DNA from: Acetobacteraceae bacterium
GTDB lineage: Bacteria > Pseudomonadota > Alphaproteobacteria > Acetobacterales > Acetobacteraceae
Length of the DNA stretch: 64,000 nt
Assembly (NCBI GenBank): GCA_947475245.1
Contig: CANJLW010000006.1
Location: forward strand, 1-64,000
Reading direction: 5' to 3'
The notes beneath the pieces were generated by a model, which saw only the letters and a list, made by a program, of their open reading frames with translations, was not told where the DNA came from and made no database searches. Position numbers and translations under genes: made by a program. Shown here in pieces: positions 23,945-43,356 of this stretch. Within the stretch, counting starts at the first letter, position 1, and the number at the start of each line of letters is the position of its first letter.

Positions 23945-23967
23945 AACGATCTGGGGGAGCGACCGCG

Positions 23968-26424: not shown

Positions 26425-27153
26425 ATGTCAGACCAAGCAAAAGCAGAACTCGCACCGACCGGCGTCCTGCGCGCGGCCATCAATATGGGTAACTTCCTGT
26501 TGGTAACCGGCAAGACCGCTTCCGGCGACCCCGACGGGGTATCCCCCGACATGGCGCGCAACATCGCTGCCCGTCTCGGCGTTGGCGTGACCTTCGTGCC
26601 CTATGCAAAGCCGAGCCAATTGGCAGACGATGGCGGGAAGGGGATTTGGGACATTGGGTTGATCGGCGCCGAACCCGCGCGCGCTCAAAAAATCGACTTC
26701 ACGGCGGCCTATGTCGAAATCGAGGCCACCTATCTGGTGCCTGCGGGTTCGTCCATTCAGTCAATTGCCGAAGTCGATCGTCCCGGCATCCGCATCGCTG
26801 TGTCCGCCGGCAGCGCATACGACCTTTGGTTGGAACGTAACATCAAGAATGCAACGTTGGTGCGCGCGAGCGGCTTAGAAGGCGCGGTTGAGCTGTTCGT
26901 AAGAGAGAAGATGGACGCCTTGGCGGGTCTGCGCCCCGGCCTGATCACCGACATCCAGAAGCTGCCGGGCGCACGCATTCTCGACGGTCAGTTCAGCGCC
27001 GTGCAGCAGGCGATCGGCACGGCGAAGACCAACCCCGCGGGCGCCGCCTTCCTCAAGGCGTTTGTCGAGGAGGCGAAAGCCAATGGCCTCGTCGCCGGCC
27101 TGATCGAAAAGCACGGTGTTGTCGGCCGCCTGACGGTCGCCCCCGCCGCCTGA
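26425..27153 (+). CDS. Solute-binding-protein family 3 domain without a signal peptide
   Basis: This 242-residue protein has the periplasmic amino-acid-binding (SBP_bac_3) fold. It begins GVLRAAINMGNFLL, continues with GVSPDMARNIAARLG and KPSQLADDGGKGIWDIGLIGAEPARAQKIDFTAAY, and has the second-lobe IRIAVSAGSAYDLWLER. The N-terminus (MSDQAKAELAPTG) is polar, with no Sec, Tat or lipoprotein signal. As written, the protein would stay in the cytoplasm. No permease or ATPase gene is adjacent. It starts 78 bp after the E1-like gene and ends 18 bp before the PrpD gene, so co-transcription with the latter is likely. A ligand-sensing or chaperone-like role is possible but unproven. Confidence 0.8.
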   Translation: MSDQAKAELAPTGVLRAAINMGNFLLVTGKTASGDPDGVSPDMARNIAARLGVGVTFVPYAKPSQLADDGGKGIWDIGLIGAEPARAQKIDFTAAYVEIEATYLVPAGSSIQSIAEVDRPGIRIAVSAGSAYDLWLERNIKNATLVRASGLEGAVELFVREKMDALAGLRPGLITDIQKLPGARILDGQFSAVQQAIGTAKTNPAGAAFLKAFVEEAKANGLVAGLIEKHGVVGRLTVAPAA

Positions 27154-27171: not shown

Positions 27172-28557
27172 ATGCCGACCATCGCCGAACGTCTGGCCGC
27201 GCTGACCGCGGCTATCACCTACGCCGATTTGTCGGATGCGGCGGTTCATTGGGCCAAGGTCGCTATTCTGGATACCGTCGGCTGCACCTTGGCCGGTGCG
27301 AACGAAGAATGTGCCCGTATTGCCGATCGGATCACCACGCTGGGTGGTTCGACCGGCGACAGCCTGATCTTCGGCTCCGACCGTCGGGTGCGCCCGATGG
27401 ACGCGGCTTTGATCAACGGCACGGCATCGCACGCCCTTGACTATGACGATTGCAGCGACACGCTGGGTGGGCATCCGTCCGCGCCCATCCTGCCGGCGCT
27501 GTTCGCCCTGGCAGAAACTCGACCGACGAGCGGGCGGGATTTCCTCGCCGCCTACGTCGCGGGCTGGGAACTGGAAACGCGGATCGCCCGCGGCGTCAAT
27601 TTCCATCACTACGAAAAGGGCTGGCATCCCACCGCCACGCTGGGGGTTTTCGGTTCGGCGGCGGCGTGCGCACACCTGCTGGGGTTGAACAGTCAACAAA
27701 TCACGACGGCGCTGGCGCTCGCGGCGACGTTTTCATCCGGCATCAAATCGAACTTCGGCACGATGACCAAGCCGCTGCATGTCGGTCACGCCGCGCGCAA
27801 CGGCCTGCAAGCCGCGCTGCTGGCGGCGGAGGGCTTCACCGCCAGCGCCGACGTGTTCGAGCACAAGCAGGGCTTCCTGAACGTGTTCAACGGCGCGGGG
27901 CATTTCGATGTCGATCGGATGTTCGCGGAACGGAGCGAACCGTGGGATATCGTCAGCCCCGGCGTCGCGATCAAACAATATCCCTGCTGCGGCAGCACGC
28001 ATCCGGCCATCGATGCACTGCTGATGCTGGTGCGGGAGCATCGCTTTGCGCCGGAGCAAGTGGATCGCGTCGATTCCTGGACTCATCCGCGGCGCCTGAA
28101 CCATACCAATCGGCCCGATCCGCAAAGCGAGCTGGATGCCAAGTTCAGCGTTCAGTACTGTATCGCGCGCGGCATCGTCAGCGGCCGGGTTTCGATCGAA
28201 CATTTTGAAGGTACGAGCTATCAGGACGCCGACGTTCAGTCGGTGTTGCAACGGGTCCATGCCGCGCCGCATCCGAATATGTCGATGGATACGTTCGAAC
28301 ATTTCGGCGCGGAAGTCCGCGTGACACTGACGGACGGTCGTGTGCTCACGCAGTCGGTGACCCGTCCGCTGGGCCGCGGTCCGACCCATCCGTTGCCCGA
28401 AGAGCTGCTGATCGCGAAGTTCATGAACTGCGCCATGCGCGCCATTCCGGAAGACGCCGCGACCCATACGCTTGGCATGTTGCGTGGGTTGGAGTCCGCC
28501 AACAGCGTCCGATCGCTCACCAATGCGATGGTGACGCGTTCGGCGCTGGCGGCGTAG
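27172..28557 (+). CDS. MmgE/PrpD family protein
   Basis: This is a 461-residue protein of the MmgE/PrpD fold, whose known members are 2-methylcitrate dehydratases or related dehydratases and decarboxylases (for example cis-aconitate decarboxylase). Diagnostic stretches are LDTVGCTLAGA near residue 30, NGTASHALDYDDCSD near 82, KSNFGTMTKPLHVGHAARNG near 185, and KQYPCCGSTHPAIDA near 268. Methylcitrate-cycle genes (prpB, prpC) are absent, so a propionate role is not supported. The neighbourhood suggests catabolism of another carboxylic acid. It converges on the AtzG-like small gene with only 6 bp between stops. Confidence 0.88.
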   Translation: MPTIAERLAALTAAITYADLSDAAVHWAKVAILDTVGCTLAGANEECARIADRITTLGGSTGDSLIFGSDRRVRPMDAALINGTASHALDYDDCSDTLGGHPSAPILPALFALAETRPTSGRDFLAAYVAGWELETRIARGVNFHHYEKGWHPTATLGVFGSAAACAHLLGLNSQQITTALALAATFSSGIKSNFGTMTKPLHVGHAARNGLQAALLAAEGFTASADVFEHKQGFLNVFNGAGHFDVDRMFAERSEPWDIVSPGVAIKQYPCCGSTHPAIDALLMLVREHRFAPEQVDRVDSWTHPRRLNHTNRPDPQSELDAKFSVQYCIARGIVSGRVSIEHFEGTSYQDADVQSVLQRVHAAPHPNMSMDTFEHFGAEVRVTLTDGRVLTQSVTRPLGRGPTHPLPEELLIAKFMNCAMRAIPEDAATHTLGMLRGLESANSVRSLTNAMVTRSALAA

Positions 28558-28563
28558 CGGCGG

Positions 28564-28740
28564 TCAGGCTTTCTTCAGGCGGAACGCGCTCAGCGGTTCT
28601 TCCGAATAGGCGCGGGGCCCCCGCACCAGTTCCGCCGCGCGATCCATGTCCTTTACCAAGGCTTCGAGCTTCGGCATGTCTTCGGCCTTCGGCTTCAGGC
28701 CCGTTGCCCGTACGCGTGCTTCGAATGAAATTTCCGACAT
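28564..28740 (-). CDS. Small AtzG/DUF4089-like protein 2
   Basis: This is a 58-residue protein, helical, with a C-terminal EEPLSAFRLKKA. Length, a central amphipathic helix (KLEALVKDMDRAAELV) and the acidic-EP ending resemble DUF4089/AtzG proteins. AtzG binds the AtzE amidase in a GatCA-like manner. It lies 22 bp downstream of amidase 2, consistent with partnership. ATG 28740 has a purine-rich AAGAGAG leader about 6 bp upstream. A longer in-frame version starting at 28794 would overlap the amidase stop and is less likely. Similarity to the other AtzG-like protein in this block is weak, so the assignment is moderate. Confidence 0.6.
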   Translation of the reverse strand: MSEISFEARVRATGLKPKAEDMPKLEALVKDMDRAAELVRGPRAYSEEPLSAFRLKKA

Positions 28741-28762
28741 TGTGTTGCTCTCTTTCGGGCGG

Positions 28763-30169
28763 TCAGTTTGCCGCCGCTGCAAGGGTTGCTTCAAGTTTCG
28801 GACGCATGCCGCGCCAGGATGTCGCTTTTTCGTAGGCGTCGCCCGCCTTCAGAACGATATGGTCCTCGAACGGACGCCCGGCGATTTGCAAGGAGATCGG
28901 CAGCCCCGCGCTGCTGAAGCCGTTGCAGATGCTTAATGCCGGAAAGCCGGTCATGTTGAACGGACGCGTCAACGAAGGGCCAACCGAGGAGTCGTAACCA
29001 CCGAGAATCGGGGCGGTGATGTGGCGGGTCGGCATCATCAGAAGATCGACATCACGCATCGTCGCGGTGACTTCCTGCACCAGGCGGGTGCGTTCGCGTT
29101 GCGCGTTCACGTAGTCCTCGGCGGAAACGAAGGCACCTGCCATGATGCGCAGCCGCCCGCGTTCACCATACAATTCGGGCGTTTCGCGCAGCCAGCGGCC
29201 GTGGATGGCGAAGGCTTCCGACGCGGTGATCAGGGAGTTGATCTCGGTGAATTTGGAAAGCGGGGAGAGCGTGACGTCGGTGACGGTCGCGCCGAGGCTT
29301 TTGTAGACCTCGATCGCGGCATTGAAGGCGGCGAGAACCTCCGGATCGGGAGTAAGATCGGTTTCGAAGAAGTGCCGCGGCACACCGATGCGCAGACCGT
29401 TCAGACCGCCGCCCAACGCGGCGGCGAAGTCCGCGATGGGCACATCGGCGCTGGCGGGATCGAGCGGATCGTAGCCGGCAAGGACCTGCATCATGATCGC
29501 GCAATCCTCGCTGGTCCAACACATCGGGCCGGCGTGATCGAGCGAGAAAGACAGCGGCAGGATACCGCGACGGCTGAGGTAGCCATAGGTCGGCTTATGC
29601 CCGGCTATTCCGCACCACGACGCCGGGCCGCGGATCGAACCGCCGGTGTCGGTGCCCATCGCCGCCATCGCCAATCCGGCGGCGACGGCCGAACCGGAGC
29701 CGGAGGAGGAGCCTCCGGGATCGTGGGCCGTGTTCCAGGGATTGCGCGCCGGCGGCCAGGGAAGGTCGAACGACGCGCCGCCGATCGCGAATTCCCATGT
29801 TGCCAGCTTACCGAGCACGATCGCGCCCGCCTGTCGCAGGCGGGTCACGGTCACGGCGTCCTCGGTCGGCACATGGTCCTTGAACAGGGCGGAATGCCCG
29901 GTCGTGCGCACGCCCGCCGTGTTGTAGATGTCCTTCAGTCCGATCGGGATACCGTGCAACGGGCCCTTCCAGTTGCCGGCGGCGATGTCGGCCTCGGCCT
30001 TGGCCGCGTCGGCCATCGCCTGGGCTTCCAGCGGCATCAGGTAGGAGTCGAGTTGGCTGTCGAGGGCGTGGATACGCTTGAAGAACGCCGCCGTCAGCTC
30101 GACCGGAGAGAGCTTTCCGACCTTTATCATCGCCGCGGCCTGGGCGATCGTCAGGAAATGTAAATCCAT
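28763..30169 (-). CDS. Amidase signature enzyme 2 (AtzE-like)
   Basis: This is a 468-residue serine amidase. The Ser-cisSer-Lys triad is visible: K79 in GIPIGLKDIYNT, the GGSSSGSG loop near 152-159, and nucleophile S178 in DTGGSIRGPA. It hydrolyses an amide bond in the cytosol; the substrate is unknown. The sequence is much closer to amidase 3 at 39987 than to amidase 1 immediately upstream; 2 and 3 share TTGHSALFKDHVP. It lies 17 bp after amidase 1 and 22 bp before an AtzG-like small gene, at the end of a long minus-strand operon with a peptide-type ABC transporter. Confidence 0.9.
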   Translation of the reverse strand: MDLHFLTIAQAAAMIKVGKLSPVELTAAFFKRIHALDSQLDSYLMPLEAQAMADAAKAEADIAAGNWKGPLHGIPIGLKDIYNTAGVRTTGHSALFKDHVPTEDAVTVTRLRQAGAIVLGKLATWEFAIGGASFDLPWPPARNPWNTAHDPGGSSSGSGSAVAAGLAMAAMGTDTGGSIRGPASWCGIAGHKPTYGYLSRRGILPLSFSLDHAGPMCWTSEDCAIMMQVLAGYDPLDPASADVPIADFAAALGGGLNGLRIGVPRHFFETDLTPDPEVLAAFNAAIEVYKSLGATVTDVTLSPLSKFTEINSLITASEAFAIHGRWLRETPELYGERGRLRIMAGAFVSAEDYVNAQRERTRLVQEVTATMRDVDLLMMPTRHITAPILGGYDSSVGPSLTRPFNMTGFPALSICNGFSSAGLPISLQIAGRPFEDHIVLKAGDAYEKATSWRGMRPKLEATLAAAAN

Positions 30170-30186
30170 TATCCTGTCCTTTCGAC

Positions 30187-31578
30187 TTACGCGACGAGGG
30201 CGGGACGCTTGCCACGCCAGCCGGTCGCTGTTTCATAGGCATGGCCGGCGCGGAACAGCATCGGTTCCGCGAAGGGGCGGGCGATCAACTGCATGCAAAC
30301 CGGCAGGCCGCCTTCGCCGTAGCCCGTGCAGACACTCATCGCCGGATTGCCGGTGACGTTGAACGGCATGGTGAGCGACGGCTTTTCCAGGTTTCCCCAT
30401 TTCGGCACGGAATCGATGCGCGGTGCTTCGCCGGGTTGGGAAGCGGAGACCAGAATGTCGTAGTCCGCCATCGCGTCGCGCACCTCGATGCACAGCATCC
30501 GGCGTCGGCGCATCGCTTGCACATAGTCGGCCGACGACATGAACGCGCCGAGGGCGATGCGATCCCTGAATAATTCCCCGTAATCGTTGAAGCGGGTCTT
30601 CAGCCAGGGCTGGTGTACCGCATAGGCTTCCGAGGTCAGGATGACCGAACCGACCGCATGATACTCCGACATCGGCGAAAGCGTGACGTCGGAGACTTCC
30701 GCCCCGAGACCGCGATAGACGTCCATCGCCGCGTCGATACCCTTGCGGGTGGCTTCGCTGACGGGGTGATCGTCCTCAAAGAAGTGGCGGATGACGCCGA
30801 TCCGCAGGCCCTTGGCACCCTTCGCCAGATCGGCCGTGAAGTTCGGCACCGGCCTGTCCGCGCTGGCGGGGTCTTCGGGATCGTAGCCCGCCATGGCTTG
30901 CAGCAGCATGGCGCAGTCCTCGACCGTCCACGCCATCGGACCCGTGTGATCCATCGTAAACGATAAAGGCAGCACGCCTGCTCGGCTGCATAGGCCATAG
31001 GTCGGCTTGATGCCGGCGATGCCGCACAGCGCGGCCGGGCCGCGGATCGATCCGCCGGTATCGGACCCGGTGCCGCCCAGAATAAAGCCCGCCGCGACCG
31101 CCGCGCCGGTGCCGGAGGAAGAGCCGGCGGTGAAGTGGTCGGGGTTCCACGGGTTCCGCGCGGGCGGCCAGGGCAGGTCGAAAGATGGACCGCCCATGGC
31201 GAACTCATGCGTCGCCAGCTTGCCCAACATGACCGTGCCGGCCGCGTCCCACTTCTTCACGACCATCGAGTCCGCGGTCGGGACGTTGTGTTCCAGCAGC
31301 TTCGAATGCGCCGTCGTGCGGATGTCCGCGGTGTTGTAGATGTCCTTGTGCGCGATCGGGATACCGTCGAGCGGTCCTTTCGCGCTGCCGGCCATGACAC
31401 GCGCTTCCGCGGCCTTTGCGTCGGCCATGGCGCGTTCTTCGGTGACCAGCAAAAAGCTGTGGAGGGCGCTGTCATGCGCCTTGATGCGGGCCAGGCTGGC
31501 TTTGGTCAGCTCGACTGGAGACAGTTTTTTCGCGGCGATCGCTTTCGATGCGCTCGCGATGGTCGGAAACGCGTCCAT
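30187..31578 (-). CDS. Amidase signature enzyme 1 (AtzE-like)
   Basis: This is a 463-residue amidase-signature hydrolase with K78 (GIPIAHKDIYNT), the cis-serine loop AGSSSGTG (151-158), and nucleophile S177 in DTGGSIRGPA. Family members include GatA and the AtzE 1-carboxybiuret hydrolase. The start ATG overlaps the stop of the upstream AtzG-like gene by one base (TGATG). Such coupling is expected for subunits of one complex. It differs clearly from amidases 2 and 3 (HSKLLEHNVP instead of GHSALFKDHVP), so it probably has a different substrate or acts at another step. No glutamine-dependent aspartyl-tRNA subunit GatB is nearby. Confidence 0.9.
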   Translation of the reverse strand: MDAFPTIASASKAIAAKKLSPVELTKASLARIKAHDSALHSFLLVTEERAMADAKAAEARVMAGSAKGPLDGIPIAHKDIYNTADIRTTAHSKLLEHNVPTADSMVVKKWDAAGTVMLGKLATHEFAMGGPSFDLPWPPARNPWNPDHFTAGSSSGTGAAVAAGFILGGTGSDTGGSIRGPAALCGIAGIKPTYGLCSRAGVLPLSFTMDHTGPMAWTVEDCAMLLQAMAGYDPEDPASADRPVPNFTADLAKGAKGLRIGVIRHFFEDDHPVSEATRKGIDAAMDVYRGLGAEVSDVTLSPMSEYHAVGSVILTSEAYAVHQPWLKTRFNDYGELFRDRIALGAFMSSADYVQAMRRRRMLCIEVRDAMADYDILVSASQPGEAPRIDSVPKWGNLEKPSLTMPFNVTGNPAMSVCTGYGEGGLPVCMQLIARPFAEPMLFRAGHAYETATGWRGKRPALVA

Positions 31579-31763
31579 CAGCGGACCTCCGGATAAAAGA
31601 TCAGCGACGGTTCGGCTTCGCGCGGCATCGGCGCGGCCGCCGTCGTCAGGATTTTCTGTAACGTCGGGTAGACGTCGAACAGCGTGTCCTTCTGTGCCTG
31701 ACTGAGCGGCAGCCCGGTCTGGGCGGCCAGAATGTCGAATTCTTCCCTGGTAACCGGCGGCAT
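31578..31763 (-). CDS. Small AtzG/DUF4089-like protein 1
   Basis: This is a 61-residue protein starting MPPVTREEFDILAAQTGLPL and ending EAEPSLIFYPEVR. The two-helix body followed by an acidic-EP-aromatic-Pro tail is characteristic of DUF4089/AtzG proteins. These are GatC-like partners that wrap around AtzE amidases. ATG 31763 is preceded by AGGAGA at good spacing. Its TGA shares a base with the ATG of amidase 1, which strongly suggests a stoichiometric complex. It lies 26 bp downstream of the ABC ATPase gene, inside the transporter operon. Confidence 0.8.
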   Translation of the reverse strand: MPPVTREEFDILAAQTGLPLSQAQKDTLFDVYPTLQKILTTAAAPMPREAEPSLIFYPEVR

Positions 31764-31789
31764 GGATGTCTCCTGAACAGACGTGGGAC

Positions 31790-32797
31790 TTACGCGGTGA
31801 CGGTTTCGGTCGCGCGAACGCAGCGGACCATGGCTCCGGAATCCGATGTGATGACGGGTATGATGCCGGAACGGCACCCGTCGGTCACATGGCGGCAGCG
31901 TGGCGCGAAGGCGCAACCGGGCGGCAGTTCCGCCAGGTTGGGAGGGGAGCCGGGGATGGTTTCCAACACGCGCCCGCGCAGCCCACCGTGTACTGTCGAG
32001 GATAGCAGGCCCTGGGTGTACGGGTGTTTGGGCGATTTCATGATTTCGCGGACGGTGCCGCTTTCCACGAAGCGGCCGGCATACATCACGGCAATGCGGT
32101 CGGAGATTTCGGCGGCCGCGCCGACGTCGTGCGTGACGAAGACGATGGCCATGCCGAGTTCTTCCTGCAACTGGCGCAGCAGCAACAGAATCTGAATCTG
32201 CACCGTGACGTCGAGCGCGGTTGTCGGCTCATCGGCCAGCAGGACGGACGGGGAGCAGGCAAGAGCCAACGCGATCATCGCGCGTTGACGCATGCCGCCC
32301 GACATCTCGTGCGGGAAGTTCTTCAGCCGTCGTTCGGCGGAGGGGATCTTGACCTGTTCAAGCAGGCCCAGCGCCCGCTTCATCGCGTCGGTGTAGGAAA
32401 TCCCCTCGTGCTGAACGATGGTTTCGGAGATTTGTTCGCCGATCGTATAGACGGGGTCCAGCGCGGCCATAGGCTCCTGGAAAATCATGGAAATCGCGCC
32501 GCCGCGCAGTTTCCCCAGTTCGGCCTTGGGCATGGTCAGCATGTCGCGACCGTTCAACCAGACCTTGCCCTGGATTTGCGCATAGGGCGGCAACAGGCCC
32601 ATCAGCGCTTTCAGGCTGACGCTTTTGCCCGACCCTGATTCGCCCAGGATCGTCATTGTTTCGCCCGCGCGCAGCGCGAAGGAAACGCCGTTGACGGCGG
32701 CGACATCGGTGTTGCGGCGCTTGAACCGTACTGTCAGGTCCTCCGCCTTCAGCACCGGTTCCCCAAGGATGGGTTTGACGTTGATACCTTCAGGCAT
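31790..32797 (-). CDS. Oligopeptide/dipeptide ABC transporter ATP-binding protein (OppD/DppD-like)
   Basis: This is a 335-residue ATPase that energises a peptide-type importer at the inner membrane. Walker A is GESGSGKS, the signature is MSGGMRQR, and Walker B is LLADEPTTALD. The C-terminal oligo_HPY Cys region (PPGCAFAPRCRHVTDGC) is as in OppD/DppD, where it holds an Fe-S cluster in some members. ATG 32797 sits behind a strong GGAGGAG ribosome site. The open frame runs further upstream but there duplicates the oppF-like coding strand. Its first 8 bp overlap the end of the upstream ATPase gene. Confidence 0.93.
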   Translation of the reverse strand: MPEGINVKPILGEPVLKAEDLTVRFKRRNTDVAAVNGVSFALRAGETMTILGESGSGKSVSLKALMGLLPPYAQIQGKVWLNGRDMLTMPKAELGKLRGGAISMIFQEPMAALDPVYTIGEQISETIVQHEGISYTDAMKRALGLLEQVKIPSAERRLKNFPHEMSGGMRQRAMIALALACSPSVLLADEPTTALDVTVQIQILLLLRQLQEELGMAIVFVTHDVGAAAEISDRIAVMYAGRFVESGTVREIMKSPKHPYTQGLLSSTVHGGLRGRVLETIPGSPPNLAELPPGCAFAPRCRHVTDGCRSGIIPVITSDSGAMVRCVRATETVTA

Positions 32798-33854
32798 GGT
32801 GTGCTCCTCCCATCGCGGCCTGGGCTTCCGGGCGGTGACAGGCGACCAGATGCGGCGTCGCGGTGTCGGCGACATCTTCGAACGGCAGGGCGAGTGTCGG
32901 AATTTGTTCGGCGCAGATCGCCTGGGCGAAGGCGCAACGCGTGCGGAACCGGCAGCCGGACGGTGGGTTGATCGGATTGGGCGGATCGCCGGTCAAAGGC
33001 ATCTCCGTCGTGCGCCGATCGGGGTCGAGTGTCGGCTTGGAGGCGAACAGCGCCCGCGTGTAGGGGTGGCGGGGGCGTCGGTAGATTTGTTCCACCGGCC
33101 CGGTTTCGACCACGCGGCCGAGATACATGACCAGGACCCGGTCGCTCATGTATTCGACCACGTTCAGGTCGTGGCTGATGAACAGATAGGTCAGGTTGAA
33201 GCTGGATTTCAGCTCGCTCAACAGGTTCAGCACCTGTGCCTCGACCGATTTGTCGAGCGCGGCGACGGCTTCGTCGAGGATGACGAGACGTGGCTCCAGC
33301 GCCAAAGCGCGGGCGATATTGACGCGCTGGCGTTGCCCGCCGGACAGTTCGTGCGGATAGCGGCGCGCGAAATGTCCGGGGTTCAGGCCGACCTGCGACA
33401 ACAGGGTTTCTGCCCGTTCCAGCGCCGCCTTGCCTGACAGGCCGTGCATGCGCGGGGCGTAGGCGATGCTTTCGGTCATGGTCATGCGGGGATTCAGGGA
33501 GGAGTAGCTGTCCTGAAACACCATCTGCATTTGCCGGCGCATCTGGTTCACGGTGATGCCGCTCTCTACGCCGACGGCGTCGCCGTCGAAGATGATGTCG
33601 CCATGATCGGGTTTGATCAGGTGCATCAAAAGTCGGGCAGTGGTGGATTTGCCGCAACCGCTTTCGCCGACGATGCCAAGGGTTTCGCCCTTGCGCACCG
33701 AGAACGAGACGTCGTCGACGGCCTGCACGGTGGCGATCTGCCGGTTCAGCATGCCGCCGCGCACGGGGAAGTACTTGCGCAGGTTGTCCACGGTCAGCAG
33801 CGGCTGAGCGGGGCCGCCGCGGTCGCGGGCGTCGAGGGTCTGGGTGGTGCTCAT
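32790..33854 (-). CDS. Oligopeptide/dipeptide ABC transporter ATP-binding protein (OppF/DppF-like)
   Basis: This is a 354-residue second ATPase of the importer. It has LRKYFPVRGG near the N-terminus, Walker A GESGCGKS, signature LSGGQRQR, Walker B LVILDEAVAALD, and the FRTRCAFAQAIC region of the oligo_HPY domain. LDEAVAALD replaces the usual DEPxSALD; Glu is kept, so ATP hydrolysis should be intact. ATG 33854 overlaps the permease stop as ATGA. A longer frame reading back to 34472 is antisense-like noise across the permease. Pairing of one OppD-like and one OppF-like ATPase is normal for this transporter class. Confidence 0.93.
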   Translation of the reverse strand: MSTTQTLDARDRGGPAQPLLTVDNLRKYFPVRGGMLNRQIATVQAVDDVSFSVRKGETLGIVGESGCGKSTTARLLMHLIKPDHGDIIFDGDAVGVESGITVNQMRRQMQMVFQDSYSSLNPRMTMTESIAYAPRMHGLSGKAALERAETLLSQVGLNPGHFARRYPHELSGGQRQRVNIARALALEPRLVILDEAVAALDKSVEAQVLNLLSELKSSFNLTYLFISHDLNVVEYMSDRVLVMYLGRVVETGPVEQIYRRPRHPYTRALFASKPTLDPDRRTTEMPLTGDPPNPINPPSGCRFRTRCAFAQAICAEQIPTLALPFEDVADTATPHLVACHRPEAQAAMGGAHHA

Positions 33855-34765
33855 TTGTTCAGCCTCACATCCATGGCGCTGCGGAAGCCGTCGCTCATGA
33901 GATTGAACGACATCGAGGTAATGAAGATCATCAGCCCGGGCAGGGCGGCGACGTAGGGTTGCACGTAGATCGCCTGGCGCAGGGAGTTCAGCATCAGCCC
34001 CCATTCCGGCGTGGGCGGGGTGACGCCGAGGCCGAGGAAGGACAGCCCGGCGGACAGGATGATCGATACGCTGATCAGGCTGGTGGCATAGACCAGGATT
34101 GGGCCGAGAACATTGGCGAGAACGTGGTGCCGGATGACCTGGAACGTCGTGGTGCCGGACGCGCGGGCGGCTTCGACGAAATCGAGCTGTCGGGCCTGGG
34201 TGGTCACGGTTTCCGACACGCGCACCAAAGGCGGAATGAACACGATCGACAGCGCGAGGATCGAGTTCGTCAGGCCGTTCCCCAGCATGCCGCAGATGGC
34301 GATGGCGAGCAGGATGGACGGGAAGGCATAGAACACGTCCATGACGCGCATGATCAGCGTGCCGACCAGGCCTCCGGCATAGCCGGCCAGAACCCCGAGG
34401 GAGCCGCCGATGGCGAGCGCGAAGGTGACCGGCAGGACGCCGGCCAGCAGGGACAGGCGACCGCCATAGCAAAGCCGGGTCCAGAGATCGCGCCCGGTCT
34501 CATCGGTGCCGAGCCCGTGGCCGGGGGTGCCGATGGGCTTGAGGCGCATGAGGACGCTGCCCTGGAACGGGTCGGCGGAGGTGACGAGCGGCGCGCCGAT
34601 GGTAATGAACAGGATCGTCAGAATGATGCAGGTGACGGCGATGGTGACGGGATCGCGCAGCAGGCGCTGGCCGACCGATTTCCAATAGCCGGGGGAGGGG
34701 GCCAATTTTTGCTGGTCGATCTTTGGAAGAGTCGGGCCAGCGATATCCATGGTTGCGTCGGACAT
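33851..34765 (-). CDS. Peptide-type ABC transporter permease (DppC-like)
   Basis: This is a 304-residue inner-membrane permease with about six helices. It has the DppC/OppC N-terminal cytosolic segment (GYWKSVGQRLLRDPVT) and GTDETGRDLWTRLCYGGRLSL. The EAA loop that contacts the ATPases is EAARASGTTTFQVIRHHVLANVLGPI. Together with the DppB-like protein it forms the translocation channel for the substrate delivered by the solute-binding proteins encoded divergently. It lies 13 bp downstream of the DppB-like gene and overlaps the ATPase gene by 4 bp. Confidence 0.93.
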   Translation of the reverse strand: MSDATMDIAGPTLPKIDQQKLAPSPGYWKSVGQRLLRDPVTIAVTCIILTILFITIGAPLVTSADPFQGSVLMRLKPIGTPGHGLGTDETGRDLWTRLCYGGRLSLLAGVLPVTFALAIGGSLGVLAGYAGGLVGTLIMRVMDVFYAFPSILLAIAICGMLGNGLTNSILALSIVFIPPLVRVSETVTTQARQLDFVEAARASGTTTFQVIRHHVLANVLGPILVYATSLISVSIILSAGLSFLGLGVTPPTPEWGLMLNSLRQAIYVQPYVAALPGLMIFITSMSFNLMSDGFRSAMDVRLNK

Positions 34766-34778
34766 GGTCGGATCCTTT

Positions 34779-35717
34779 TCAGCGCCGGATGCGCGGGTCG
34801 ATCGCTGCCTGAGCGATATCGACGAGCAGGTTGAGCAGGACGAAGAAGGTGGCGAGGACGAGGATCGTGGCCTGCAGGATGGGGATGTCGCGTCGGAAGA
34901 TCGCGAGGTTGAGCAGGTTGCCGGAGCCGGGCCAGTTGTAGACGGTCTCGACCAGGATCGAGCCGCCGAGGAGGTATCCGAACTGGAGTCCCATCAGCGC
35001 GAGCACGGGCGGGGCGGCGTTTTTGCAGATGTGGCGGATGACCGGCCAGCGGGTCAGGCCCTTGGCGGAGAGCGCGCCGACGAAATCCTGTCCGAGGATT
35101 TCCAGCACGGTGGCGCGCACCAGTCGGCCGATGACTCCCATGGGGATCAGCGACAGGGTGACGACCGGCAGGACGAGATATTGCAGTCGGTTGTAGAGCG
35201 GTTCGGCATCGTCGCCCATGCCCTGCGCGGGCAGGAAGTCGTTCATCACGGCGAAGGCGAGGACGAGGACGATGGCGCACCAGTAGTGCGGCAGCGAGAC
35301 TCCGGTGGTTGCCAGTGCGGAGAACAGCTTGTCGGGCCACCGTCCGTGATAGAGCGCGGAGATCATGCCGAAGCCGATGCCGAGGGAGAATCCGACCATG
35401 GCGGCGAGGATGGCGAGGATGAAGGTATTGCCGAGGGCGGCGATGAGCTGTCCCCAGACGGGTGTTGCGTTGAACACCGAGAGTCCGAAGTCGCCCTGCA
35501 GGGCGCGGAACAACCAGAGGAAATATTGGACGTAGAGTGGTTTGTCGAAGCCGAAGGCGGCTTTCATCTGGGCGATGATTTCGGGCGATGCCTCGGGCGG
35601 CATGAGCATATCGATGGGGTTGCCCGGGACGATATGGACCAGTCCGAAGACGACGAGTGTGACGCCGAGAAGGATTGGGATTGCCTGGAGCAATCTGCGG
35701 AAGGCGAAGACGAGCAT
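34779..35717 (-). CDS. Peptide-type ABC transporter permease (DppB-like)
   Basis: This is a 312-residue permease starting MLVFAFRRLLQAIPILLGVTLVVFGLVHIVPG, the canonical opening of DppB/OppB. Other family blocks are FDKPLYVQYFLWL, GVSLPHYW, and the EAA loop in VGALSAKGLTRWPVIRHICKNAA. ATG 35717 (AGGAG about 10 bp upstream) is preferred to the in-frame start at 35801, which adds a polar, atypical leader. It is the first gene of the minus-strand transporter-amidase operon. It faces the divergent cysteine-hydrolase gene across a 205-bp regulatory interval. Confidence 0.92.
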   Translation of the reverse strand: MLVFAFRRLLQAIPILLGVTLVVFGLVHIVPGNPIDMLMPPEASPEIIAQMKAAFGFDKPLYVQYFLWLFRALQGDFGLSVFNATPVWGQLIAALGNTFILAILAAMVGFSLGIGFGMISALYHGRWPDKLFSALATTGVSLPHYWCAIVLVLAFAVMNDFLPAQGMGDDAEPLYNRLQYLVLPVVTLSLIPMGVIGRLVRATVLEILGQDFVGALSAKGLTRWPVIRHICKNAAPPVLALMGLQFGYLLGGSILVETVYNWPGSGNLLNLAIFRRDIPILQATILVLATFFVLLNLLVDIAQAAIDPRIRR

Positions 35718-35922
35718 GGCGGACAACGCTCCTGTTCGGTTGCCGTGGCGTTCGGCGGTGGGCCTATGCTGCGATGCAGCACGATTGCCCGAGATTAGCA
35801 CTCCGACGGTTTCTGTCCAGTCAATTGACAGTCTATATTTTAACCATTTGCATATTATGTATTCTCATCATACGCTGGCAGTGCCGGTTGACCGGTAATT
35901 CAGTCTAAATCAGAGGCATACC
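35718..35922. promoter_or_regulatory. Divergent control region of the amidase-transporter block
   Basis: This AT-rich interval lies between the dppB-like gene and the cysteine hydrolase gene. It contains a perfect 10-bp palindrome GTCAATTGAC (35820-35829). It also has TTGACA at 35825-35830, a possible -35 element facing right, followed by TA-rich sequence including TATATT and TATTAT. A second short dyad CCGGTTGACCGG lies at about 35883-35894. The AT content drops sharply on both sides. A shared regulator binding here would control both halves of the block; no regulator gene is nearby. Confidence 0.5.
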
Positions 35923-36642
35923 ATGCATAAACCCAGCATCAGCGCAGCCGTCGCGGCCCGTGCAATTGAGCGGCGCGGGAGTGTCCGTGTGTTCAAAAGC
36001 CTTGTTCCTGAGCGTACTGCCCATATTGTGGTCGATCTGCAAAACGGATTCATGGCCCCAGGCGAGGTCGCGGAAATCGGCAACGCCCGCGAAATCGTCC
36101 CCGCCGTCAACCGCATCAGCGCCGCTCTGCGCGACGCCGGCGGTATCGTTGTCTACATTCAGAACACCTTCGACGACCTCGCAGTCAGCACCTGGTCCAC
36201 CTTTTTCGACCATTTCTGCTCCCCCGCTCGGCGTCAGCGGATGATCGACGCATTCACACCCGGCGCCTTCGGACATCAGATCTGGGCCGGACTCGACGTC
36301 AGGGACGAGGACCTGAAGGTGCAAAAGCGCCGCTTCGGCGCCTTCGCGCCGGGATCGTCGGATTTGCACGAAATCCTGCAGGCTCGCGGCATCGACACCT
36401 TGATCGTCACGGGCACCGCGACTCAGGTCTGCTGCGAATCCACCGCGCGAGACGCGATGATGATGAATTACAAGGTGTTCTTCGTCGCCGACGGCAACGC
36501 CACGTTCACCGACGAGGAACATAACGCAACGATTTCGGCCATGGCGCACGCGTTTTGCGACGTCATCGACTCCGATGCCATGACGGCGATGATCGAGAGT
36601 CAAACAGTTTCAGAAGAAACCAAAGAGCCTGTCCTGGCATAG
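35923..36642 (+). CDS. Cysteine hydrolase (isochorismatase-like)
   Basis: This is a 239-residue hydrolase of the isochorismatase fold. The triad is D38 (VDLQNGF), K135 (LKVQKRRF) and C170 (TATQVCCESTARDA). Members with this triad hydrolyse C-N bonds in small amides such as nicotinamide, ureidoacrylate, N-carbamoylsarcosine and biuret; the substrate here is not identifiable. It has no signal peptide. It faces the transporter operon and is followed 88 bp later by the two solute-binding proteins, so it likely works on the imported compound or on a product of the amidases. Confidence 0.9.
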   Translation: MHKPSISAAVAARAIERRGSVRVFKSLVPERTAHIVVDLQNGFMAPGEVAEIGNAREIVPAVNRISAALRDAGGIVVYIQNTFDDLAVSTWSTFFDHFCSPARRQRMIDAFTPGAFGHQIWAGLDVRDEDLKVQKRRFGAFAPGSSDLHEILQARGIDTLIVTGTATQVCCESTARDAMMMNYKVFFVADGNATFTDEEHNATISAMAHAFCDVIDSDAMTAMIESQTVSEETKEPVLA

Positions 36643-36730
36643 CCCTTGCAATTGCCCCACCGGGTGTCGAGGCGGTCGCAGACGCGCCGCTTCGCCCCAA
36701 CCCCTGCAATCGCATGATTGGACAGCCCCG

Positions 36731-38332
36731 ATGATCTCAAGGCGTGGTCTTATGACCGCCGCGGCCAGTGCCGCCGCGCTCCCCATCCTTCCCAGTCACG
36801 CGGCGGGTCCGCAAATCCTGCGGATCGGCATGACCGCGGCCGATCTGCCGACGACGCACGGCATTCCCAATAACGGCGGCGAGGGCTTTCGATTCCTCGG
36901 CCATCCCGCGTACGACGCGCTGATCAACTGGGATTTCACCAAGCCGTCGAAGCTCGCCGATATCACCGGCGGCATCTTTACGGACTGGAAGGGCGACGAG
37001 GGCAATCCCTTGCGCTGGATTTTCTCTGTCCGTCAGGGCGTGAAGTTCCATGACGGCACCCCGCTGACCGCCGATGCCGTGCTGTGGAACCTGCGCCGCA
37101 TCTACGACGACAAATCCCCGCAGTACGACGCCACCGCCTCGCCAATCGTGCGCGCCACCGTGTCGATGATCGCGACTTATGAAAAGACCGACGAAAAGAC
37201 CATCGTCCTGACGACCAAATATCCGTTCAGCTTTCTGCCCTACTTGCTGACCCGCGTGCTGATCACGAGCCCGACGCGCTGGGAAGAGGCCGGCAAAAGC
37301 TGGGCCGAATTCGCCAAGAAGCCGGCGGGCACCGGGCCGTTCAAAATCACCAAGGTGGTGCCCGGACAATATGCCGAACTGTCCCGTAACGAGGAGTATT
37401 GGGACAAGGGCCGCATTCCCAAGCTGGAAAAGATGGTGGTTTATCCGATGCCGGAAGCCACCACACGGGTCGCGGCGCTTCGGTCCGGACAGGTCGATTG
37501 GATCGAAGTCCCGCCGCCCGATTCCATCCCGTCTCTCAAACAGGCCGGCATGCAGATCAGCCTCTGGCCCTATCCGCACACCTATCCTTACGCGTTGAAC
37601 TGCCTGGAATCCTCGCCGTTCCGCGACGTGCGGGTGCGTCAGGCGCTGAATTACGCGGTCGATCGCGAAGGCATGTGCAAGATGCTGAATGGCATCGCCA
37701 AGCCGGCCGCGGGGCTTTACCCACCGGAAGATCCGATCTTCGGCAAGCCGAAGAACAAATACATCTACGACCCCGACCGTGCGAAGGCGCTGCTGAAGGA
37801 CGCCGGCTACGGCCCAGGCAAGCCGGTCAAGGCCAAGATCATGATCTCCACATCCGGGTCCGGCCAGATGCTGCCCATCCCGATGAACGAGTTCATGCAG
37901 CAGAACTTCAAGGCGGTAGGTATCGACGTTGAATTCGACGTCGTCGAATGGGGCACCATGCTGGTCGCCATTCGCAACGCGCCCACGGCGCCGCAGTCGC
38001 ACGGCGTGGACGGCGTCAATATCAGCCTGAGTTTCACCGACCCGTCCTCGATGTTCCGCTACTACGCGACCGACAGCTTCGCCCCGACCAACTATAACTG
38101 GGGTCACTGGAAGCACGAGGAAGCGACCGACCTGCTGCGTAAGGCGCAGGCGACCTTCAGTTCCGCCGAACAATTGGAACTGCTGGCCAAGGCGCACGCG
38201 ATCGTCGTCGATGAGGCGCCGTGGCTGTTCATCGTTCACGACCTGAACCCGCGCGCGATGTCGAAAAAGGTCCAGGGTTTCATCCCGGCGCAAAGCTGGT
38301 CCCAGGACTTCACCCAGATCACGATGGCATAG
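36731..38332 (+). CDS. ABC transporter substrate-binding protein, family 5 (copy 1)
   Basis: This is a 533-residue periplasmic binding protein for the peptide-type importer. The N-terminus MISRRGLMTAAASAAALP has a twin-arginine motif, a hydrophobic stretch and a SHAA cleavage region, so Tat export is likely. SBP_bac_5 landmarks are GVKFHDGTPLTADAVLWNLRR and KPAGTGPFKITKVVPGQYAEL. The ligand is unknown. It is followed 12 bp later by a second copy of identical length. Both are on the opposite strand to their presumed permeases and ATPases. Confidence 0.93.
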   Translation: MISRRGLMTAAASAAALPILPSHAAGPQILRIGMTAADLPTTHGIPNNGGEGFRFLGHPAYDALINWDFTKPSKLADITGGIFTDWKGDEGNPLRWIFSVRQGVKFHDGTPLTADAVLWNLRRIYDDKSPQYDATASPIVRATVSMIATYEKTDEKTIVLTTKYPFSFLPYLLTRVLITSPTRWEEAGKSWAEFAKKPAGTGPFKITKVVPGQYAELSRNEEYWDKGRIPKLEKMVVYPMPEATTRVAALRSGQVDWIEVPPPDSIPSLKQAGMQISLWPYPHTYPYALNCLESSPFRDVRVRQALNYAVDREGMCKMLNGIAKPAAGLYPPEDPIFGKPKNKYIYDPDRAKALLKDAGYGPGKPVKAKIMISTSGSGQMLPIPMNEFMQQNFKAVGIDVEFDVVEWGTMLVAIRNAPTAPQSHGVDGVNISLSFTDPSSMFRYYATDSFAPTNYNWGHWKHEEATDLLRKAQATFSSAEQLELLAKAHAIVVDEAPWLFIVHDLNPRAMSKKVQGFIPAQSWSQDFTQITMA

Positions 38333-38344
38333 GATCCCAGCTTT

Positions 38345-39946
38345 ATGATTTCGAGACGTGGTTTCGTGGCGGGAGCGGCAATCGCCGCCTCCCTGCCGAT
38401 TTCGTCCGCTCATGCCGCGGGCGGCACATTGCGTATCGCCATGACGGCGGCGGATATTCCCAGCACGCACGGCATTCCGAATAACGGGTTCGAGGGGTTT
38501 CGTTTCCTCGGCTATCAGCCCTATGACGCCTTGGTGAACTGGGATTTGCGCAACAATCCCGATAAGCCCGCGAATATCGTTCCAGGACTGTTCAGCGCCT
38601 GGAAGCCCGATCCGGCCAATCCCCTCGGCTGGATCTTCACCGTGCGCCAGGGCGTGAAGTTCCACGACGGCACCGATTTCACCGCCGATGCCGTGATCTG
38701 GAATCTGCGCCGGGTCTATGACGACAAGTCGCCGCAATACGACGCCACCGCCGCGCCGATCATCCGCGCCGCCGTGTCCATGGTCGATGGCTTCGAAAAG
38801 AAGGACGATTCGACGATCGTCATCACGACGAAGTATCCGTTCAGCTTCTTCCCCTGGCTGTTGACTCGCGTCCTGATGGTCAGCCCGACCCAGTGGGAAG
38901 TCGTCGGCAAAAGCTGGGCGGAATTCGCGAAGAAGCCGGCCGGCACCGGGCCGTTCAAGATCGTGCGCGTCGTACCGGGCCAGTACGTCGAAATGGCGCG
39001 GAACGAGGAGTACTGGGACAAGGCGCGGATACCGAAGATCGAGAAGCTCTTCGTGCATCCGATGGCCGAAGCCACGACCCGCATCGCCGCGCTGCGCTCC
39101 AACCAGGTCGATTGGATCGAGGTCCCGGCCCCGGACTCCATTCCGTCGTTGAAAAGCGCCGGCTACAATGTGCTGCTGTGGCCGTATCCGCACACCTATC
39201 CCTATGTGCTGAATACGCAGGAAGGCTCGCCCTTCCAGGACGTGAAGGTCCGTCAGGCGATCAACTACGCGATCGATCGCGACGGGCTGTGCAAGCTGAT
39301 CAACGGCATCGCCAAGCCGGCCGTCGGGTTGTATCCGTCCGACAGCAAGTTCTTCGGCGACCCGAAGCAGAAGTACAAATTCGATCCGGACAAGGCCAAG
39401 GCGCTGTTGAAGGAAGCCGGCTACGGCCCCGGCAAGCCCGCCAAGGTCAAAATCATGATCTCCACATCCGGATCGGGCCAGATGCTGCCGATCCCCATGA
39501 ACGAGTTCATTCAGCAGAACTGCAAGGCTGTCGGTATCGAGATCGAGTTCGACGTGGTCGAATGGGGCACCATGCTCGTTGCCATCCGCAACGATCCCAA
39601 GGCACCGCAAAGTCACGGCGTGCACGGCATCAACATCAGCCTGAGTTCCGTCGATCCGTCGACGATGTTCCGCTATTACGCGATCGATAGCTTCACCCCC
39701 ACCAACTACAATTGGGGGCATTGGCGGAACGAAGAGGCGACCGCCTTGTTCAAGAAGGCGCAAGCCAGCTTCGACGAGACGGAACAGACCGCGCTGCTCG
39801 CCAAGGCGCACGCGATCATGGTCGACGAAGCGGCCTGGCTGTTCATGGTGCACGATCTGAACCCGCGCGCCATCTCGAAAAAGGTCACGGGCTTCCAGCC
39901 CGTGCAAAGCTGGTTCGTGGACCTGACGACGATCTCCATGACCTGA
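38345..39946 (+). CDS. ABC transporter substrate-binding protein, family 5 (copy 2)
   Basis: This is a 533-residue tandem paralogue of the preceding gene. It has a Tat-type start (MISRRGFVAGAAIAASLP) and the same SBP_bac_5 landmarks. Long stretches are near-identical (EFAKKPAGTGPFKI, KIMISTSGSGQMLPIPMNEF, VEFDVVEWGTMLVAIRN), while other segments have diverged. Substitutions are spread along the chain, so this is an established duplication, not an assembly artefact. The two could share one transporter and widen its ligand range. A GC-rich hairpin follows the stop. Confidence 0.93.
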   Translation: MISRRGFVAGAAIAASLPISSAHAAGGTLRIAMTAADIPSTHGIPNNGFEGFRFLGYQPYDALVNWDLRNNPDKPANIVPGLFSAWKPDPANPLGWIFTVRQGVKFHDGTDFTADAVIWNLRRVYDDKSPQYDATAAPIIRAAVSMVDGFEKKDDSTIVITTKYPFSFFPWLLTRVLMVSPTQWEVVGKSWAEFAKKPAGTGPFKIVRVVPGQYVEMARNEEYWDKARIPKIEKLFVHPMAEATTRIAALRSNQVDWIEVPAPDSIPSLKSAGYNVLLWPYPHTYPYVLNTQEGSPFQDVKVRQAINYAIDRDGLCKLINGIAKPAVGLYPSDSKFFGDPKQKYKFDPDKAKALLKEAGYGPGKPAKVKIMISTSGSGQMLPIPMNEFIQQNCKAVGIEIEFDVVEWGTMLVAIRNDPKAPQSHGVHGINISLSSVDPSTMFRYYAIDSFTPTNYNWGHWRNEEATALFKKAQASFDETEQTALLAKAHAIMVDEAAWLFMVHDLNPRAISKKVTGFQPVQSWFVDLTTISMT

Positions 39947-39953
39947 ACCGAAG

Positions 39954-39977
39954 CGGGGGAGCCGGACGGCTCCCCCG
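39954..39977. terminator. Bidirectional-type hairpin between convergent genes
   Basis: A perfect 10-bp stem (39954-39963 with 39968-39977) with a GGAC loop lies between the stop of binding protein 2 and the stop of convergent amidase 3. There is no T tract on either side, so termination is plausible but unproven. Confidence 0.6.
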
Positions 39978-39986
39978 TATCGTCGC

Positions 39987-41381
39987 CTACATCGCGAATG
40001 CCGGACGCTTGGAGCGCGTGCCAAGCGCCTTTTCCAGCGCATCGCCGACCTTCAGAACCAACGCATCCTCGAACGGACGACCGCCGATCTGCAGCGACAG
40101 CGGCAGGCCGGAGGAGCTGTAACCGTTGCAGATCGACAGGCCCGGATTGCCCGTCACGTTGAAGGCACGGTTGAAGAACGGCTGAAATCCCGAAGCCATC
40201 GAGTCCTCGCCGATCGGGCGTGCCGGGCAGCGCGCCGTCGGGAAGACCAGCACATCGACGGTCTTCATGACCTCGGCGACTTCCGCCACCAGCTTCGCGC
40301 GTTGCCGCTGGGCATTCACATAATCGGCGGCGGAGATGAACGCGCCGGCCATCAGCCGTTGCCGGCCATAGGCACCGTACAGTTCCGGCGTCGTGCGCAG
40401 CCAATGCTGGTGGAACGCATAGGCCTCGCTGCGGGAAATCAGGCTGCCGGTGTCGCCGTAAACGCCGAACGGCGACAAGGTGACATCGACGACGCCGGCG
40501 CCGAGCTCGCGCAACGCGGCGAGTGAGGTTTCAAATGCGGCGATGGTTTCCGGATCGGTCGTCAGATCGGTTTCGAAGAAATGGCGCACCACGCCAACCC
40601 GCAATCCGGCCAAACCGCCACCCAGCGCGTCGGCGAAGCTGACTTTGGGCGGGGTCGCACAGGCAGCATCCAGCGGATCGTGCACCGCCAGCACGTCCAT
40701 CATCAGCGCGCAGTCCTCGCTGGTCCAGCACATCGGTCCGGCGTGATCCAGAGAGAACGACAGCGGTAGGATGCCGCGTCGGCTGAGATAGCCATAGGTG
40801 GGCTTGTGCCCGGCGATGCCGCACCAGGCCGCCGGCCCGCGAATGGACCCGCCGGTATCCGTGCCCATCGCGCCCAGGCACAATCCCGCCGCGACAGCCG
40901 CGCCGGAGCCGGACGATGAGCCGGACGGATCAAGCGACAGATCCCACGGATTGCGCGCCGGCGGCCAGGGCAGGTCCATCGATGTGCCGCCGATGGCGAA
41001 CTCCCACGTTGCGAGCTTGCCCGTGAACACCGCTCCGGCGGCGCGCAATAACCCGACGGTAAAGGCGTCCTCGTCCGGCACATGGTCCTTGAACAGCGCG
41101 GAATGCCCCGTCGTCGCCACGCCTTCGGTGTTGTAGATATCCTTCAGGCCAATCGGAATGCCGTGCAGCGGTCCTTTCCAGTTGCCGGCGGCGATCTCCG
41201 CCTCCGCGGTCCGGGCCGCCGCCATGGCGGAGTCCTCCAGCACAAGCAGATGACTGTTCAACCGGCCGTCCAGTTCGGCGATCCGCGCGAACTGTGCCTT
41301 GGCGAGGTCGACGGGCGACAACGCGCCCGATCGAAGCTGCGCCGATGCCTCGGCGATGGTGAGAAAGGGAAGTGCGCTCAT
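39987..41381 (-). CDS. Amidase signature enzyme 3 (AtzE-like)
   Basis: This is a 464-residue amidase with K80 (GIPIGLKDIYNT), the SGSSSGSG loop near 153-160, and nucleophile S179 in DTGGSIRGPA. It is a clear paralogue of amidase 2 at 28763: both share GHSALFKDHVP, CGIAGHKPTYGYLSRRGILPLSF and similar C-termini. The copies flank the transporter, hydrolase and binding-protein genes at its two ends. No AtzG-like small gene is attached to this copy. ATG 41381 (MSALPFLT) is used; an upstream in-frame start at 41435 would add an atypical leader. Confidence 0.9.
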   Translation of the reverse strand: MSALPFLTIAEASAQLRSGALSPVDLAKAQFARIAELDGRLNSHLLVLEDSAMAAARTAEAEIAAGNWKGPLHGIPIGLKDIYNTEGVATTGHSALFKDHVPDEDAFTVGLLRAAGAVFTGKLATWEFAIGGTSMDLPWPPARNPWDLSLDPSGSSSGSGAAVAAGLCLGAMGTDTGGSIRGPAAWCGIAGHKPTYGYLSRRGILPLSFSLDHAGPMCWTSEDCALMMDVLAVHDPLDAACATPPKVSFADALGGGLAGLRVGVVRHFFETDLTTDPETIAAFETSLAALRELGAGVVDVTLSPFGVYGDTGSLISRSEAYAFHQHWLRTTPELYGAYGRQRLMAGAFISAADYVNAQRQRAKLVAEVAEVMKTVDVLVFPTARCPARPIGEDSMASGFQPFFNRAFNVTGNPGLSICNGYSSSGLPLSLQIGGRPFEDALVLKVGDALEKALGTRSKRPAFAM

Positions 41382-43143: not shown

Positions 43144-43356
43144 ATGGATATCCAGGTAAGCGACGTCATCGTCGGCCTTCTCATGTCGGTCCTTGGTCTG
43201 ATCGGCCTGTTTATGGCCGCGGGCGCGACCGACGACGCAATCTATGTTTTTGGCCTTTCCCTGGCCGGTTTCGCGGTCGTCTTCGTGCTGGGGTTGATCC
43301 GGCGTCATTTCGACCGGCAGTCCGGTACCATGCCGAAGGGGACCGACTATGTCTGA
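43144..43356 (+). CDS. Small two-helix membrane protein leading the cco operon
   Basis: This is a 70-residue protein with two predicted membrane helices (about residues 8-26 and 32-53) and a polar, basic C-terminus ([19 protein letters not shown]). Its start follows the FNR/FixK-type site. Its last 8 bp overlap the start of ccoN, so translation is coupled. I do not recognise a named family. Position and coupling suggest a cbb3-associated subunit or assembly factor; this is inference. Confidence 0.75.

Follow-up and report, generated by a model that had tools for sequence, protein, structure and literature searches.

Introduction

In Pseudomonas sp. ADP, the amidase AtzE and the small protein AtzG together form a 1-carboxybiuret hydrolase (6c62/6c6g). 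Its published account describes AtzG as non-catalytic, AtzE as insoluble without it and the heterotetramer as thought to be derived from GatCA, and adds that atzGE clusters often adjoin ATP-binding cassette (ABC) transporters (PMC6219798). Here we analyse a block of twelve genes at positions 28564-41381 of a 64,000-nucleotide (nt) stretch of DNA from an Acetobacteraceae bacterium, hereafter the window, whose host sequence is a 5.2 Mb draft genome (G000, the host genome). The block encodes three putative amidase-signature enzymes (ami1, ami2 and ami3), two AtzG-like small proteins (sgA and sgB), a cysteine hydrolase (CHyd) and a putative ABC importer of the Dpp/Opp type with two binding proteins (SBP1 and SBP2). 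We consider it reasonably likely that this locus serves the import of carboxamides and their stepwise amide hydrolysis, a general scheme that names no particular substrate.

Results

Eight of the genes form a minus-strand operon, transcribed in the order dppB-dppC-oppF-oppD-sgB-ami1-ami2-sgA, with intergenic gaps of at most 26 nt throughout and overlaps at three junctions; a preliminary description of this DNA had given the block the same genes, strands and tight gaps. A plus-strand arm, parted from dppB by a 205-nt spacer, carries CHyd, SBP1 and SBP2, and ami3, convergent with SBP2, bounds the far end. The start codons of oppD, oppF, dppB, sgA, sgB and ami3 were chosen within longer open frames.

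The two small proteins carry much of the argument. sgB (31578-31763, minus strand; 61 amino acids) lies directly ahead of ami1, its stop and the ami1 start sharing one base, and sgA (28564-28740, minus strand; 58 amino acids) is the last gene of the operon. Neither matched a Pfam or NCBIfam model at E<=1. Both behave as real genes: the ratio of non-synonymous to synonymous change (pN/pS) was 0.38 for sgB (six chosen sequences, 15 pairs) and 0.25 for sgA (eight chosen sequences, 28 pairs), and the sgA DNA read in its other two frames as a control gave 1.7 and 2.9. In our main sample, 79 named loci with an ami1 relative, an sgB-like open reading frame (ORF) passing a C-terminal motif filter was found directly upstream of that relative in 68.

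Kinship of sgA and sgB with AtzG, which the preliminary description had proposed, is supported by profile-profile comparison where Pfam and NCBIfam were silent. The sgB family (69 sequences, picked by position and then by the C-terminal motif filter) aligned in hhalign with 28 PF13318-positive AtzG proteins at 94.9% probability (E 4e-8), reversed controls giving 0.3%. The sgA family (20 sequences) aligned with the sgB family at 95.3% and with AtzG at 32%. Against 14 GatC proteins sgB reached 23% and sgA 0.1%, and 15 syntenic sgB sequences alone gave 91.4% for AtzG and 0.2% for GatC. The AlphaFold model of sgB has two helices and an extended tail (pLDDT 88.3, pTM 0.60). When it was compared by Foldseek with 350,542 chains, ranks 1, 2, 4 and 9 came from GatCA/GatCAB entries, the chains being taken as GatC by entry title and length, and AtzG (6c62_C) stood at rank 5. 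PF13318 and PF02686 were set aside as direct proof of AtzG or GatC identity, the window proteins not being among the matches of either model; the AtzG model PF13318 matched one of 20 small-protein family members (E 0.008). Matches from profile searches of the PDB were likewise rejected as weak and unrelated, the best (E 0.0072) being a hydrolase, followed by calmodulin-type proteins.

The distribution of this family was followed with A2, a profile of 20 small proteins, with at most 150 candidates scored per genome. Because A2 was built from ORFs that adjoin amidases, the refinding of these ORFs is circular; the host-genome matches on contigs C7, C12 and C68 and the 24 C-terminal domains described below lie outside the model. 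The host genome gave six matches at E<=5e-6 (next best 0.34), all within 150 nt of amidases: both window copies and those on C23, C7, C12 and C68. In the last (L257:945-2576), the translation places the AtzG-like domain at the C-terminal end of an amidase, in one reading frame. Across 33 genomes of the same genus there were 112 matches at E<=1e-3. Sixty-one lay upstream of an amidase in the same orientation, 58 of them at most 147 nt away and three at 321-438 nt; 20 lay 17-56 nt downstream of one, and 24 lay downstream but still in the long open frame of the amidase itself, forming its C-terminal domain; five of the remaining seven were beside an amidase or amidase piece, and two had no amidase in the examined stretch. 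In total, 110 of the 112 matches stood beside, or in frame with, an amidase, in agreement with the earlier proposal that small proteins and amidases are paired as in GatCA. The fused class was defined by an open frame of at least 500 codons, translations being read for the host C68 copy, L107, L111, L113 and L114. For the natural fusion from Acidisphaera sp. S103 (L114), the predicted fold (pLDDT 91.1, pTM 0.92; C-terminal helix pair about 89-93) had as its top six PDB matches catalytic chains of GatCA-type or AtzEG complexes. Separately, one sgA gene (L291, G029:C268; E 5e-28) has no amidase within 4.5 kb, and an ami2/ami3-type amidase lies on another contig of G029.

Plasmids also carry such proteins. 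In 14 plasmid loci, from a listing of 30 among 84 matching records, A2 found a small ORF beside an amidase in 12, one of which (Rhizobium tumorigenes) was already in the model, and found none in two Rhodococcus plasmids. The small ORF is absent from the gene tables for Cupriavidus, Planktothrix and Agrobacterium larrymoorei, the PLSDB tables themselves being incomplete. In Roseomonas marmotae it is named 'AtzG-like protein' by NCBI; kinship to AtzG has therefore already been recognised for part of the family.

Comparison of loci and genomes suggests that sgB probably partners ami1, and sgA probably ami2 and ami3. In the four loci outside the window with a small ORF directly upstream of an ami2/ami3-clade amidase, the sgA model outscored the sgB model every time (35.0 vs 18.7 bits in L055, 25.9 vs 12.7 in L058, 37.6 vs 21.3 in L068 and 20.4 vs 7.3 in L190), and ORFs upstream of ami1-like amidases scored better with the sgB model. 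Two more distant host-genome ORFs (C3, C38) scored with neither. Among the 33 genomes, sgA was found in 21 and an ami2/ami3-type amidase (at least 60% identity to ami2) in 16, all within those 21; in G004, one of the five sgA-only genomes, an 84%-identical amidase fragment adjoins sgA. The 12 genomes that lack sgA also lack an ami2/ami3-type amidase, and four of them (G001, G012, G013, G025) carry ami1 at 74-81%. The Fisher p for this co-occurrence is 5e-6 or 2e-5, depending on the treatment of G004, and is overstated because the genomes are related. No small ORF was found adjacent to ami3, and sgA therefore probably serves both ami2 and ami3.

All three amidases, ami1 (30187-31578), ami2 (28763-30169) and ami3 (39987-41381), lie on the minus strand, match PF01425 at 328-348 bits and retain intact amidase-signature motifs (KDIYN, GSSSG and G-DTGGSIRGP). 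Their PF01425 match and the sequence motifs of the Lys-cisSer-Ser triad place them in the Amidase signature family. As had been noted, ami3 is nearest to ami2, with 68% identity. Among the 25 NCBIfam models listed for each amidase, no cut-off was reached. The best models were GatA, PRK06169 and AtzE, at about 268-304 bits vs cut-offs of 425-506. The AtzE models gave 268.9-294.2 bits vs 425.75 (TIGR02715) and 277.8-292.9 vs 461 (NF006631), the GatA equivalog 267.8-303.8 vs 481.1, and indoleacetamide hydrolase (NF005688) 236.1-264.5 vs 532, values which do not fit the well-known aminoacyl-tRNA or indoleacetamide enzyme set that the preliminary description had named as its own refutation. ami1 has its closest named relatives in records from Acetobacteraceae and allied Rhodospirillales, and its best non-GatA solved relative is AtzE (6c62, E 4.7e-69).

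A tree of 68 amidases, made by a quick method, placed ami2 and ami3 in one clade (8 rows, starred support 100) and ami1 in another (11 rows, starred support 99); a 38-row group (unstarred support 91) contains both clades. AtzE and the PF13318-linked amidases formed a 6-row clade (starred support 100) without ami1-3; the 38-row group stands apart from that clade and also from the host genome's GatA. Judged by scores and tree, ami1-3 belong neither to AtzE nor to GatA nor to any other named equivalog, and the label 'AtzE-like' is not supported in its strict sense. The likeness to AtzE-AtzG lies in the architecture, an amidase-signature chain with an adjacent protein of about 60 amino acids that ends in an E-P-x-x-F type motif, found here beside ami1 and ami2. 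The locus differs from AtzE-AtzG in having three amidases for two small subunits, and in related lineages the small domain forms the C-terminus of the amidase. AtzH (DUF3225) was matched by none of the twelve genes in general Pfam and NCBIfam scans, no dedicated search being made. With GatC-GatA the modelled structures suggest a shared amidase fold and a weak small-subunit resemblance. However, no GatB was seen among the block genes, judged by the Pfam and NCBIfam families found, and the host genome carries its true GatC-GatA elsewhere, on contig C15.

CHyd (35923-36642, plus strand) is an isochorismatase-fold cysteine hydrolase (PF00857, 133.4 bits) with D38, K135 and C170 assigned by motif and alignment. 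The fold and these D-K-C residues are shared with TrtA, BiuH and RutB. With its best NCBIfam models, RutB (TIGR03614, 76.5 bits vs 377.95), PRK11440 and biuret hydrolase BiuH (NF050097, 49.8 vs 370), CHyd stays well under cut-off. Three residues past the lysine, the alignment of CHyd with RutB has Phe in CHyd and Tyr in RutB. According to PMC7948467, a further lysine stands at this spacing in BiuH and TrtA (K142/K145 and K129/K132); judged from the alignment to RutB, CHyd apparently lacks it.

The importer genes comprise an oppD-type ATPase (31790-32797), an oppF/dppF-type ATPase (32790-33854), a dppC-type permease (33851-34765) and a dppB-type permease (34779-35717), all on the minus strand, and SBP1 (36731-38332) and SBP2 (38345-39946) on the plus strand. 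Permeases, ATPases and SBP1 match Opp/Dpp/Nik-type NCBIfam models, all below the curated cut-offs of the models listed, and SBP2 matches Pfam SBP_bac_5. Among solved proteins, SBP1 is nearest to those named HbpA, YliB, DppA and AgaA. Two permeases, two OppD/F-type ATPases and an SBP_bac_5 binding protein make this, by gene content, a Dpp/Opp-type ABC importer, as in DppABCDF and OppABCDF; here, in contrast, there are two binding proteins, divergent and behind the hydrolase gene. Both are candidates for export by twin-arginine translocation (Tat), on the basis of an RR signal motif identified by eye.

The preliminary description had suggested looking for the same set in other genomes and had named its absence from relatives as a refutation; importer, CHyd and amidases do recur together across genera, in further Acetobacteraceae loci and on plasmids. 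In eight of the 79 loci (L041, L042, L044, L045, L049, L051, L055, L058), ami1 and CHyd lie with three or more importer genes in a stretch of 10 kb. One of them, L049 from Acidisphaera sp. S103, has importer, CHyd, sgB and ami1, and no ami2, ami3 or sgA was seen in it. L180, L182 and L183 show a second, colinear order, SBP-dppB-dppC-oppF-oppD-CHyd-amidase, variants of which occur in L179, L181, L190 and L192. On contig C3 of the host genome (L188, G000:C3:155000-174000) this order appears without an amidase in the stretch, with a second Dpp-type importer, a CHyd paralogue (47%) and three SBP_bac_5-type proteins. Plasmids of R. tumorigenes and Rhizobium rhododendri bring together a small ORF, amidases, a Dpp importer and CHyd (importer genes 43-64% identical, ami1 49%, CHyd 47%). 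A plasmid of R. marmotae reads, by annotation, amidase-small ORF-SBP-two permeases-two ATPases-isochorismatase-DinB-'AtzG-like protein'-amidase, identities having been measured for amidase and small ORF only. Because it recurs in other genera, the arrangement is more than chance. Within the same family, 67 of 299 genomes have CHyd relatives (E<=1e-30), and in a phylum sample 5 of 398 do, the host genome included. A different conserved neighbourhood surrounds Belnapia/Paracraurococcus-type ami1 relatives (L063, L065, L080, L093, L112; most with sgB): a UgpC-type ABC system, a PRK06154 thiamine pyrophosphate (TPP) enzyme, an MR/MLE (enolase-type) enzyme and a 2-hydroxyacid dehydrogenase, in clusters present in up to 17 loci.

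The divergent spacer contains a dyad, TGYTGCNNNGCARCA, at 35767-35781 (no strand), a candidate shared operator for both arms. It matches once in the window vs 0.02 expected, for a pattern drawn post hoc from these loci, and exactly in 19 of 297 loci. By position, the exact dyad lies upstream of dppB in L041, L042, L045, L046, L049, L150 and L196, with overlapping copies of those genomes in addition. No exact match was found upstream of dppB in L044, L051, L055 and L195, the alignment giving near matches for L044 and L051. The host genome has 13 sites vs 2 for the reversed pattern. The dyad may resemble the CTGC-N3/4-GCAG sites of PhaR/AniA.

Outside the block, an MmgE/PrpD-family gene (27172-28557) is convergent with sgA; a gene of this family likewise stands ahead of a small ORF-amidase pair on a plasmid of Agrobacterium vaccinii (L210), perhaps by chance. 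Positions 23890-27153 hold a Transketolase/AceE-like TPP protein (aceE 158 bits vs cut-off 860) and then an SBP_bac_3 protein in which no signal sequence is obvious by eye. These three genes were rejected as block members, the 79 named loci giving a single weak SBP_bac_3 match (26%). On the other side, 43349-44809 looks by eye like a cbb3-type cytochrome oxidase subunit I (candidate).

Discussion

In the scheme of carboxamide import and hydrolysis, by which the block would scavenge small compounds of this type, the two periplasmic binding proteins would feed the one importer, and two-subunit cytoplasmic amidases, ami1 with sgB and ami2 and ami3 with sgA, would then cut amide C-N bonds stepwise together with CHyd, releasing ammonia and acids. 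By analogy with AtzG for AtzE and GatC for GatA, the small subunit may act as a clamp for amidase folding and stability and not as a catalyst. We infer that import would precede hydrolysis, that the paired proteins would form physical complexes, and that primary amides rather than ureides would be the substrates.

This last point is suggested by the neighbours of relatives, which favour primary amides over ureides. On Agrobacterium rubi pW2_73_1 (L309), nitrile hydratase alpha has two amidase genes next to it, both accompanied by a small ORF, and one of the two was profile-tested; a relative of ami1 is among these amidases. Amide hydrolysis is a trait that the locus would share with nitrile hydratase-amidase operons, from which it differs in having no nitrile hydratase among its twelve genes. 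The A. rubi plasmid is conjugative and also carries two SH3-like genes. Beside the C23 pair of the host genome, an acetamidase/formamidase-family gene (FmdA_AmdA) stands between two amidases, and an asparaginase-family gene adjoins the importer arm in L195; cluster-mates of the latter occur in L179, L181, L185, L186 and L187, the L195 member alone having been scanned for family. A further hint comes from R. tumorigenes, which has a protein distantly like UrtA (132.8 bits vs cut-off 492.75).

Several observations weigh against the scheme. All the neighbour hints for carboxamides come from relatives, and the ligands of SBP_bac_5 proteins are of many kinds. For most of the 79 ami1 relatives, the stretch seen contains no such importer, some loci ending at contig ends, and some CHyd relatives adjoin other transporters; since the importer varies or is absent, the enzymes are not tied to it. 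The AtzG kinship also leans on the C-terminal E-P-x-x-F motif: with this cut off, the sgB-AtzG match falls to 54.9% and the sgA-AtzG match to 1.4%, the sgA-sgB match staying at 95.7%. The Foldseek E-values for the GatC and AtzG chains are weak (0.53-5.5, none significant alone), and PDB sequence-profile searches with the small-subunit families returned no AtzG or GatC at E<=10.

A pathway for ureides, on which the preliminary description had laid emphasis, appears rather unlikely to us. Biuret-, triuret-, hydantoin- or carbamoyl-type compounds would be imported, CHyd would act like TrtA, BiuH or RutB, and carboxybiuret-type intermediates would be hydrolysed by the amidases in the manner of AtzEG. 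Such a route would suit the solved relative of ami1 and the best NCBIfam models of CHyd, and it has a precedent in TrtA, whose product, carboxybiuret, is the substrate of AtzEG (PMC7948467). The UrtA-like protein of R. tumorigenes can be read in its favour as well, as can an Asp/Glu/hydantoin racemase gene beside the C7 pair of the host genome, also present in R. marmotae by annotation. However, the low RutB and BiuH scores of CHyd, the Phe at the place of the second lysine and the position of ami1-3 outside the AtzE clade speak against it, and because of these scores and this tree position, a biuret, triuret or cyanuric acid pathway is not our first choice. Nothing relevant on methylenediurea gene clusters was found in the open-licence literature.

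It is also conceivable, if improbable, that the importer is a true oligopeptide importer and that the amidases strip C-terminal or side-chain amides from peptides or amino acid amides, as peptide amidase or asparaginase does. The Dpp/Opp type of the importer, the asparaginase-family gene beside importer genes in L195 and the presence of peptide amidase among the amidase relatives would agree with this, but peptide amidase is more distant than AtzE and GatA both in sequence and in fold, and Dpp-type importers are known to carry many non-peptides. That the block merely gathers unlinked amide hydrolases in a neighbourhood of nitrogen metabolism, without a common substrate, seems very improbable: the 26 PF01425 matches of the host genome (a single open frame accounting for two of them) and the many different neighbours of amidase relatives would allow it, but the operon packing, the recurrence of importer, CHyd and amidases in two gene orders and two bacterial orders, and the conserved dyad between the two arms argue otherwise.

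The system had been put forward as undescribed, which stands in part. Clusters of atzG and atzE by ABC transporters are in print (PMC6219798), and in the open-licence literature we found no published account of the divergent small-subunit family, of its fusions or of the importer-hydrolase-amidase set.

Beyond carboxamide import and hydrolysis at this locus, we tentatively raise a wider possibility, for which the odds are somewhat against us. Acetobacteraceae and some other bacteria may hold a large and mostly unannotated GatC/AtzG-like family that has radiated with broad-range amidases, one pair per substrate, C-terminal fusions included, and sgA, in serving ami2 and ami3, may couple consecutive steps through sharing or mixed complexes. 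If this is true, many 'amidase' entries would be half-enzymes whose tiny partner is missing from annotation, and the missing partner could explain the failed expression or unknown activity of such amidases. In that case AtzEG, far from being an isolated oddity of herbicide degradation, would represent one branch among several in which the GatCA scaffold serves amide catabolism. The locus would offer a defined import-and-hydrolysis cassette, whose substrate may be found by simple growth and binding tests.

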